Shown here: positions 34,872 through 56,915 of the stretch, piece by piece | Layout: each line of letters opens with the position of its first letter | Numbering within the stretch: position 1 is the first letter of the stretch | Source of the DNA: Crocosphaera watsonii WH 8501 | GTDB taxonomy: Bacteria > Cyanobacteriota > Cyanobacteriia > Cyanobacteriales > Microcystaceae | Assembly: GCF_000167195.1 (NCBI RefSeq) | Contig: NZ_AADV02000002.1 | Coordinates: forward strand, 400,269 to 464,268 | Direction: 5' to 3' | Length of the DNA: 64,000 bases | Program-made: the position numbers and the translations under genes | Notes under the pieces: model-generated | The model's input: only the letters and a program-made list of their open reading frames with translations | Database searches by the model: none | Told to the model about the DNA's origin: nothing

Positions 34872-35264
34872 TCAAAGAACGGATTTTGTATTACATTCAT
34901 GACATCGCCCAAAAAATTCTAGGGTATGGTAGTAGACCTGAAAGTTATAAGTCTTCTCTAATCGTTTTTCTAAATCATGAACAGGACACTCATTGATCAC
35001 GAAAGATTGACCACAACTAACACAAATTACGTGGTGTTGCTCATGAGAAATTACACTGTAAATTGCTTCTCCATTGCTTAAAGTTCGTGATTTCACAGTT
35101 CCTTGAGTTTTTAAACCTTCTAAGGCACGGTAAACTGTTGCTAGTCCTAAAGGCTGATCTCGATGTTTGAGTTCTGCATATAAGTCCTGGGCGGAAATAC
35201 CATACTTTAACGACTTGAGTACCCGAATAATTTTCTCTTGAGAACGAGTATATTTAGCTTTCAT
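34872..35264 (-). CDS. zur: Fur-family metalloregulator, probably Zur
   Basis: The 130-residue repressor has a winged-helix DNA-binding half (LKYGISAQDLYAELKHR, GLATVYRALEGLKTQG) and a metal-binding half with HEQHHVICVSCGQ, NECPVHDLE and a C-terminal CHEC. The two CxxC pairs form a structural zinc site. The CPVHDLE variant and the znuABC genes with Zur-type boxes in the same island favour Zur over Fur or PerR. It is transcribed leftward from a 5' region of about 220 bp that holds a perfect Zur-type palindrome at 35489, so autoregulation is likely. Confidence 0.85.
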   Translation of the reverse strand: MKAKYTRSQEKIIRVLKSLKYGISAQDLYAELKHRDQPLGLATVYRALEGLKTQGTVKSRTLSNGEAIYSVISHEQHHVICVSCGQSFVINECPVHDLEKRLEKTYNFQVYYHTLEFFGRCHECNTKSVL

Positions 35265-35329
35265 GATCTTTTCATTTTCAGTCCTAGATTAACACTCTCC
35301 TTTTATTTATTAGTGACCAATGTGATATA

Positions 35330-35480
35330 CTTCTCCTGTTAGGCGAGAATTTCCCCCTGCCGAAACGTGCAATCACTGGTCTTACTTATTCATGTCTCCC
35401 AAGACGTGAATTTCGGTATACCCTGCCTTACGGTTCTATCCGAGCATCGTTACGTCCTAAAGGAGTTGGTTTTAGACCCT
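35330..35480. other. Conserved-looking noncoding block in the zur leader
   Basis: Between the zur start and the palindrome at 35489 lies about 150 bp that is much less AT-rich than its surroundings. It contains the stretch GTCTCCCAAGACGTGAATTTC, and on the minus strand a short open tail reading LKPTPLGRNDARIEP then stop. This resembles the terminal codons plus right end of a tnpB-type element without the rest, but I cannot confirm it. If transcribed it forms most of the zur 5' leader. Confidence 0.35.
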
Positions 35481-35488
35481 TGATTTTT

Positions 35489-35503
35489 TGATAATAATTA
35501 TCA
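35489..35503. promoter_or_regulatory. Zur-type operator (perfect 7-1-7 palindrome)
   Basis: TGATAAT-A-ATTATCA exactly fits the TGAxAAT-N-ATTxTCA consensus of cyanobacterial Zur boxes. It lies 225 bp upstream of the zur start on zur's strand, with the noncoding block 35330-35480 between. Confidence 0.78.
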
Positions 35504-35576
35504 TTCTCATTATATCCCCTTTAAGTTTTAATTCAATGCTTGTCTAGCTTGAGTGAGAACTTTACCGAACAATTAG

Positions 35577-35973
35577 GGGTTTAAGGTTCCCCGCCGTTTA
35601 CGGCGCACAGTGAGGGAAATTTATGGTAGAATGTGTTTGGTTGAAATACCCGACCCCCTACTGCGTAGGCTAGGAAATTCTAGAGGCAAAGCGTTCCGAG
35701 AAGGTCGAAACTAAGAACCTGTGGTGGCGAAAGCACAGCAAAAACAGCTAGGGAAACGTGATTGAGTACCAAAGTTTGAATAAACCAACATTCTGAATAA
35801 ACAGTATGGTCGGGCATCCGAAAACTGAGGGCAACCACCTGAACGACTGGGGACAGCCCCGCCTATGGCTAGCTACTGCGAGAGTGGAGATAGTTAAGCG
35901 GTCTGGATGAGCCAGTAATCCAGACGAGTGATGTTTGGAGAATCCACTCACTTCAGGGAGTGGAGTATGTCAA
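35577..35973 (+). mobile_element. tnpB-less IS200/IS605-like derivative with a structured 3' region
   Basis: The left part has a GC-rich hairpin (CGCCG-TTTA-CGGCG, 35592-35605) after an AAGGTTCCC motif. The right part ends in a hairpin CCACTC...GAGTGG (35944-35963) followed by AGTATGTCAA, the arrangement of IS605-group right ends. Upstream of it is a highly structured stretch, including GTCTGGAT...ATCCAGAC at 35901-35925, that corresponds in position to the right-end omega RNA of tnpB elements. There is no transposase or tnpB ORF, so this would be a non-autonomous (PATE-like) element. The RNA assignment is inference. Confidence 0.55.
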
Positions 35974-35984
35974 CCCATCGCCAT

Positions 35985-36353
35985 TTAGATAAAGTTTGGC
36001 AAAGAGTAACTAAGAATATCGGTTACACGCTTATCTCTTAGAGAATAATAAGCCAATTTGCCGTCATTACGATATTTAAGTAGTTTCAAATCTCGCATTT
36101 TCCGTAAATGATGGGAAGCGGTGGCGATCTTGACATTTAACATGGCAGCAATATCGCAGACACAAAGCTCATCGCCGTTTCTAAGAGCATAAAGGATCTG
36201 AATACGCGAGCGATCGGCTAAAGCATTAAATATAACCGTCATTTCTTCTAAAGTATCTTCTGAGGGTAAAGTTTCCCGAATTTGCGTAACTAGCTCGGTG
36301 TTGAAACATCTTACTTGACAAATATCGTCTGCTTTGGTCTTACTCACGGGCAT
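35985..36353 (-). CDS. ArsR/SmtB-family metal-sensing repressor
   Basis: The 122-residue winged-helix protein has recognition helix VKIATASHHLRKMRDLKL and wing KYRNDGKLAYYSL. Metal ligands visible are CQVRC near the N-terminus and ELCVCD in helix 3, the alpha3N-type cysteine site known from CadC and AztR-like sensors. The alpha-5 region reads RDKRVTDIL without the His pair of SmtB, and the C-terminus ends shortly after, 12 bp from the IS605-like right end. No P-type ATPase or metallothionein target gene is adjacent. Confidence 0.85.
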   Translation of the reverse strand: MPVSKTKADDICQVRCFNTELVTQIRETLPSEDTLEEMTVIFNALADRSRIQILYALRNGDELCVCDIAAMLNVKIATASHHLRKMRDLKLLKYRNDGKLAYYSLRDKRVTDILSYSLPNFI

Positions 36354-36356
36354 TTA

Positions 36357-36680
36357 ATGGTAACGGTTAAGTCTATTTATTCAATGGTACAGGATACAAA
36401 TTACTTAAGTCATTGGTGCAATCTCGCTTTGCAAGGTAAGCTTAAAACGGAAAGCCGACATAGGAAGAAGTATTTTCCCAAGAAAATTAGAGAATTAAAA
36501 GCTATGCTATTGAAAGCAGATTGTATTTGCGAACAGGGTAAAGGAAGCCACACTAAATGCAGTCATCCTTTGTTAGATTACAAGATAACTATATCTGGTA
36601 AAGATGGGAATGATGCTAAACGCTATCAAGAAAAAGATGTAAAAGATTTGCTCAAAGATATTCAGGAGGCTCAAAAATGA
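36357..36680 (+). CDS. hicA: HicA-like toxin
   Basis: The core is KKIRELKAMLLKADCICEQG followed by GKGSHTKCSHP, where the GSH histidine is the catalytic residue of HicA mRNA interferases, and it ends ERD-like in KDVKDLLKDIQEAQK. HicA is normally 60-80 residues, so the first 35 residues of this 107-residue frame may not belong; no better ATG exists between 36384 and the core. It overlaps the antitoxin gene by 4 bp. The toxin-first order is typical of hicAB. Confidence 0.75.
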   Translation: MVTVKSIYSMVQDTNYLSHWCNLALQGKLKTESRHRKKYFPKKIRELKAMLLKADCICEQGKGSHTKCSHPLLDYKITISGKDGNDAKRYQEKDVKDLLKDIQEAQK

Positions 36681-56678: not shown

Positions 56679-56807
56679 TTTTCCTCAGAATCTATAGATT
56701 AGCCCTATTTGTCAGCCAATTTTATTGACTGATACAGAGCCGATATTTTGGGATTTTAGTTTAGCGTAAAATATACGCTAACAAACTTTTTTTGTCCAAA
56801 GTCCAAT
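55330..56807 (+). mobile_element. Truncated copy of the unassigned DDE insertion sequence
   Basis: The element lacks its transposase-start end, which is replaced by IS1634 at 55329. It retains the other end with TTAGCG...CGCTAA and CCAAAGTCCAAT at 56796-56807. It is inverted relative to the copy at 42800-44412. Confidence 0.88.
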
Positions 56808-56915
56808 AATATTATATAATAATAATAGCTTCCCCCACTTTGAGCAGGGAAAGCTAATCAAAAAATGAAGTTATTTAATGGCCGAGTGAGTCAATAAGAT
56901 TCAATTAACTTGGCT

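Follow-up and report, generated by a model that had tools for sequence, protein, structure and literature searches.

A tnpB-less IS200/IS605-type element in Crocosphaera watsonii that keeps an omega-RNA-like core

When an IS605-type element carries no tnpB gene, does it still keep a guide RNA that a TnpB made elsewhere could use? We address this question at a locus of Crocosphaera watsonii WH 8501, where a short element lies between the genes for a Fur-family regulator (34872-35264, - strand) and an ArsR-family regulator (35985-36353, - strand). The window is the whole stretch of DNA analysed (64,000 nt), and the genome searched along with it comprises 6.24 Mb in 323 contigs. The anatomical half of our answer is supported by sequence comparison: the unit is a tnpB-less IS605-type element with a 3' region homologous to the 3' end of tnpB and the adjoining right end, and with helices that covary. 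The functional half, which comprises transcription, a guide copied from the flank and the use of the RNA by TnpB in trans, is a plausible prediction. As a whole, we consider it rather probable that the unit is a non-autonomous transposon resembling PATEs and has kept an omega-RNA for a TnpB (together with a TnpA) supplied in trans. Its features, from left to right, are as follows.

35561-35565, + strand: TTTAC, target of the insertion and predicted transposon-adjacent motif with a TTAC core, from the TTAC that precedes the copies
35566-35973, + strand: tnpB-less IS200/IS605-type element of family F1, 408 bp, ends set by copy comparison
35592-35605, + strand: left-end hairpin CGCCG-TTTA-CGGCG, recognised by eye and present also in L098, L099, L103 and L104
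35624-35632, + strand: putative promoter-like extended -10 motif, TGGTAGAAT
35639-35756, + strand: conserved 5' domain of the presumed RNA; five copies differ at 14 of its 118 columns
35757-35799, + strand: variable linker, 20 of 43 columns variable in the same five copies
35801-35973, + strand: omega-RNA-like core (scaffold) reaching the right end, from covariation and a covariance model, R1 (169.1 bits, the window core being one of the 30 rows used to build it)
35833-35945, + strand: homologue of the 3' portion of tnpB frames in other genomes, with the open frame lost here, from sequence matches
35943-35964, + strand: right-end hairpin TCCACTC...GAGTGGA, with GAAT before it (35940-35943) and GTATGTCAA after it
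35974-35989, + strand: predicted guide, the first ~16 nt of the right flank, by the rule of PMC10278001

Extent, ends and copies of the element

The initial annotation began the unit at 35577. Its true start is 35566, 11 nt further out and directly after TTTAC, because copies L098, L099, L103 and L104 have TTAC followed by C.AA.AA..TAGGGGTTTAAAG in common. The right end, formerly placed at 35973, stays there: it is sharp, it closes with the terminal letters ...GTATGTCAA, and upon local re-alignment of a query extended to 36050 it is reached by 41 non-self loci, 40 of which stop within 4 nt of this position (a count made by hand, in which L005 and L076 are one place and the exception, L077, continues 19 nt further). 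A query of 35500-36050 against the organism's own genome found six non-self places, five of which end within 4 nt of 35973, while the sixth, C45, is an internal piece. TTAC stands immediately 5' of all 11 copies examined from F1 and from a second tnpB-less family, F2, that have a readable left end (the window copy, L098, L099, L103, L104, L009, L083, L091, L111, C299 and C318:12648). Copies of F3 and F4 are preceded by TTATC and one F5 copy by TCATC; L109 and L100 have broken left ends. There is no target duplication: in the window copy, L098, L099 and L104, no TTAC follows the right end.

The hairpins previously claimed for both ends were found at 35592-35605 and 35943-35964. These near-terminal palindromes are akin to those of IS605-type elements, and both the left-end type and the TTAC site recur in L065, an element with tnpB. 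The absence of protein likewise held up, with no TnpB-like open reading frame in the unit and the longest frame entering the core starting 18 nt upstream of the core; the element is also too short for a transposase gene. We rejected a classical MITE, as terminal inverted repeats are absent and no inverted pair links the two ends. The longest inverted pair joins 35639-35659 with 35955-35975, its left arm being 73 nt away from the left end. In this pair the presumed start of the RNA faces the RNA's 3' end plus the first two bases of the flank, with 81% complementarity over 21 nt.

F1 forms a family of repeats, with full-length members also present in other Crocosphaera genomes, at different sites with unrelated flanks. 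Three copies that cover all 397 query positions are 86-92% identical to the query, many others are truncated, and in G211 many fragments finish at contig ends, as expected of repeats that break assemblies. A 20-letter motif of the element recurs exactly in 12 stretches, which all belong to three Crocosphaera MAGs. Matches to the family extend to other genera (L009, L112), and a plasmid collection yielded one partial match, on a Rippkaea orientalis plasmid.

In four Crocosphaera relatives (G204, G205, G206 and G209), about 700 bp lie between the left flank and the arsR side; this DNA is absent from the window, where the element sits at the junction (35566 to 35984). We found no clean empty site for the window copy or for L098, nor any when the joined flanks of 15 elements were compared with the fetched loci. 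One comparison, G208 with ATTAC directly joined to TGTATTT and G209 with ATTAC, the element and TGCATTT, is short and consistent with clean insertion after TTAC. The window copy's left hairpin is flanked by AAGGTT where other copies have AAAG. The distal pairs of its helix 1 are broken, as they also are in L078 and L002 and partly in L098; by eye, a shifted 4-bp stem is possible in their place. As a side observation, L099 and L104 have an orthologous left flank and a nearly identical element, with unlike right flanks, of which that of L104 resembles element-free genomes; the right-end hairpin loop of L104 is inverted.

The window also holds a tnpB-less F3 element next to the F1 unit, in opposite orientation (35322-35494, - strand), with TTATC, the left end GGGTCTAAAACC, a short core and the right end GTATATCAC; it scores 13.0 bits with the core model (E = 0.054) and has relatives in its own genome at C287, C318:49663, C322:248726 and C323:623199. 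Another weak match to the core model (56758-56861, + strand; 13.9 bits, E = 0.032, GC 0.31) has a hairpin and then TCAA at its end.

Covariation in the core and conservation of the 5' domain

The unit had been described as holding a GC-balanced, structured stretch. The first part stands: the unit's GC content is 0.491 compared to 0.361 for the window, a value reached by 0.24% of 1273 windows of 397 nt. The second part stands by covariation and fails by folding energy, which is no better than that of shuffled sequences (z = 0.32 for the whole unit; z = -1.78 to +0.68 for four pieces).

The 173-nt core is homologous to the tnpB 3' end plus the right end in elements that carry tnpB. In nine other genomes (L016-L019, L023-L026 and L028), the stretch 35833-35945 matches the ends of TnpB-like frames (...NDWGESGLWVFNRDVEDLSRLVEP...), after which the right end follows. 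Cores were gathered by requiring a motif at either end, which by itself fixes a few columns; L082 was included though its motif is inexact. The resulting alignment A1 holds 30 cores, 12 from loci with tnpB or a tnpB relic and 18 without tnpB; among its rows, L002, L082, L093, L094 and L106 are left-truncated, L101 is cut by a contig end and L015 lacks a recognisable left end. RNAalifold places 31 pairs on the 30 cores, with double changes in 21. Across all rows, 96.7% of cells are paired, compared to a mean of 79.2% after shuffling and 29.2-47.6% when the structure is slid along the alignment; the covariation score is 0.479, while shuffling gives 0.167 and sliding at most 0.075, and slid structures have at most seven pairs with double changes. 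The structure was derived from the same sequences and is consequently favoured over the slid controls. The 18 rows without tnpB, taken separately, have 95.3% of cells paired (84.8% shuffled) and double changes in 14 of the 31 pairs (at most two slid).

Covariation between families may be older than the loss of tnpB, and we tested F1 alone for this reason. Its 13 rows give a weaker signal: double changes in seven of 45 pairs (shuffled mean 2.6; at most three slid), and 95.5% of cells paired compared to 93.4% shuffled, a slight excess. The pair types within F1 have no excess, as the observed 21 were reached by 105 of 500 shuffles. Judged by covariation, the core has a conserved secondary structure. 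Its model, R1, has matches in 45 of the 50 genomes searched within the family and in 84 of 292 in a sample of the phylum, counts that mix places with and without tnpB and, for the phylum, come from a scan with stricter filters and few candidates scored per genome.

Upstream of the core, the 5' domain is the element's most conserved segment: in the same set of five copies the core varies at 37 of 174 columns and the left end at 50 of 73, two of the five copies being broken at the left end. Searches with 35639-35756 matched only tnpB-less copies and fragments, and they turned up no element that combines tnpB with the F1 5' domain. One such match stands alone in another genus of the family, a 42-nt fragment with 88% identity (L022 1501-1542, - strand). 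Among 23 pairs predicted in the 5' domain there is a double change in one; covariation has no power here because the domain hardly varies. The promoter-like motif ahead of it has a similar counterpart in seven of 12 tnpB-less elements, a count made without a chance control. A sigma-70 scan left TGGTAGAAT at 35624-35632 unflagged, and no terminator was found in 35400-36100. The second family, F2 (L083, L086, L091, L111, L012 and L013), has a different conserved stretch before the core. The left part of two F2 members, L083 and L111, contains an antisense open reading frame of 45 codons that is weakly DUF6290-like (20.4 bits, cut-off 27).

A proposed guide RNA for TnpB in trans and its alternatives

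A guide RNA used in trans would need a TnpB, and related tnpB elements, for which a search had been suggested, do exist in cyanobacteria, some of them in the same genome. R1 matches 31 cores in this genome; 20 have a TnpB domain upstream and 11 have none, a split made by a distance rule that uses the TnpB Zn-ribbon PF07282 (86 matches) on the same strand, upstream. Among the 11, C227 retains a shred of the tnpB frame, C292:8806 is a left-truncated F1 copy and four (C292:21945, C178, C323:719738 and C323:288758) are F4 copies at four sites. At C314, an intact-looking TnpB of 424 aa with OrfB_IS605 and TNB domains adjoins the same kind of core, which scores 161.4 bits with R1 compared to the window's 169.1, both cores being rows of the model; by eye, the protein has what we take to be the acidic RuvC motifs. 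The genome also holds 11 matches to the Y1 transposase family.

The route from such an element to a tnpB-less one has an example in this genome. C321 (L065) combines the left-end type of F1 and F2 with a 416-aa TnpB frame, and C279 (L064) is the C321 element minus most of tnpB, with both ends and the core kept. By its sequence, C279 exemplifies the proposed path of internal deletion, though in a more distant family. We did not find the direct autonomous parent of F1, because the tnpB elements with the best-matching cores have another left-end type. Small palindromic insertions of the GCGGTCTTGGGG...CCCC type occur in tnpB 3' ends and guide-RNA elements (L056, L061, L062, L111 and L205); in L056 the TnpB frame remains open across the insertion.

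We propose the following mechanism. The element would have lost tnpB, probably through internal deletion, and retained both transposon ends, the promoter-like motif and the omega-RNA scaffold running to the right end. According to PMC10278001, the omega-RNA scaffold of known systems stops at the right end, and the guide sequence lies beyond it. By this rule, an RNA from near 35640 would read past 35973 and thereby take up about 16 nt of flank, CCCATCGCCATTTAGA, to serve as its guide. The initial annotation drew this guide from the 3' end of arsR; it begins at 35974, 11 nt ahead of the gene's last base at 35985, and therefore lies only partly within the gene. The target would be TTAC plus the guide sequence, which is the element-free allele. 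A TnpB from a related element may bind the scaffold in trans and cut chromosome copies without the insertion, and repair after the cut would then restore the element. A TnpA made elsewhere would move the element, again in trans.

The same anatomy could be that of a dead relic, a deletion derivative that once moved and merely inherited its omega-RNA region, with no present use. We consider this unlikely. The changes in the left end and helix 1 of the window copy, its missing right flank (about 700 bp), the many truncated copies and the fact that deletion derivatives do arise (C279) all agree with decay, whereas the double changes that F1 by itself has at 7 of 45 pairs, a 5' domain with 14 of 118 variable columns against 20 of 43 for the linker in the same copies, and multiple sharp-ended copies argue against it. 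Where the conserved parts lie bears on a second alternative, that of a miniature element used for transposition only, in which the structure serves the ssDNA transposase TnpA and not an RNA. TnpA is not known to require more than the terminal hairpins, yet covarying helices extend 30-170 nt inside the right end, beyond those hairpins, and a further conserved domain lies deeper in the element. Such an element is quite improbable, even though its terminal hairpins, TTAC and TCAA would presumably suit IS608-type TnpA substrates and short copies can be multi-copy, as with F4 at four sites.

Two other accounts have lower standing. The position between two regulator genes, fur-like and arsR-like, and a family old enough to be found in other genera (L009, L112) could suggest an RNA co-opted to regulate host genes, like TnpB-derived RNA-guided repressors, or one serving another nuclease; copies at unrelated sites with unrelated flanks, and a neighbourhood of the window copy that is not conserved, make this very improbable. 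A long non-coding stretch within IS605-type ends also recalls a self-splicing intron or IStron, a reading that we find scarcely credible: the unit is intergenic, and a comparison with Rfam, proposed earlier as a check for group II introns and other RNA families, returned no family at threshold, with no intron family at gathering score nor at E <= 1 over 35200-36400.

There is a wider and more tentative reading, which we think possible yet somewhat doubtful. Cyanobacteria would harbour several RNA-only selfish families that parasitise TnpA for movement and TnpB for retention, the latter through a stand-alone omega-RNA; one nuclease would serve many scattered guide loci, and the F1 5' domain would be peculiar to stand-alone guides, enabling them to capture TnpB or to compete for it. 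Cas12 is regarded as a descendant of TnpB, and a nuclease whose guides lie scattered in trans marks one step along that descent. A genome in which 11 of 31 cores lack an upstream TnpB domain is a natural test of omega-RNA function in trans, of the hijacking of TnpB by protein-less elements for their own retention, and of the evolution of guide RNAs once free of overlap with protein-coding sequence.

Relation to known systems

The members of RAGATH-18 (RF03064) are guide RNAs of IS607 TnpBs. The window copy has no match to this family. The F2 relative L083 aligns over the whole model at its core, below threshold (19.9 bits, E = 0.54, gathering score 44.9). HgcC was also rejected as an identity for the window core (14.8 bits, gathering score 50). 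According to PMC11061315, 64% of RAGATH-18 RNAs (10,258 of 16,029) adjoin IS607 TnpBs, and therefore the remainder do not.

Among the papers that the literature search listed, no title or abstract opening described tnpB-less guide-RNA elements in cyanobacteria. Two papers on cyanobacterial MITEs (PMC11448079, PMC3542288) describe other elements in the portions consulted, and PMC12558985 and PMC11870625 make no mention of terms for tnpB-less guide-RNA elements.

Like the omega-RNAs of IS608/ISDra2-type TnpBs, the presumed F1 RNA has a scaffold that overlaps the tnpB 3' end in tnpB-bearing relatives, stops at the right end and would take its guide from outside. Unlike them, it lies in an element with no tnpB and has an extra conserved 5' domain. 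Stand-alone omega-RNAs, guide-RNA loci without an adjacent nuclease gene, have reportedly been described for IscB; there the nuclease is IscB rather than TnpB.

PATEs of Haloquadratum and the PATE-like sequence of Halanaerobium are, in the passages of PMC3119063 and PMC7290912 that describe them, non-coding elements with near-terminal IS605-type palindromes, derived from IS605-type elements by deletion of the core; that of Halanaerobium retains 28 nt from the left end, the final 58 nt of tnpB and a right end of 160 nt. The F1 element resembles PATEs in its near-terminal IS605-type palindromes and its lack of coding capacity. The same passages make no claim of a guide RNA and contain no covariation, whereas the F1 element has a covarying scaffold of 173 nt together with a conserved 5' domain; moreover, several such tnpB-less families occur here within one genome. 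PATEs are the closest known kind, to which the present case adds a covarying guide-RNA scaffold in a protein-less element, a conserved 5' domain and several families in one genome.
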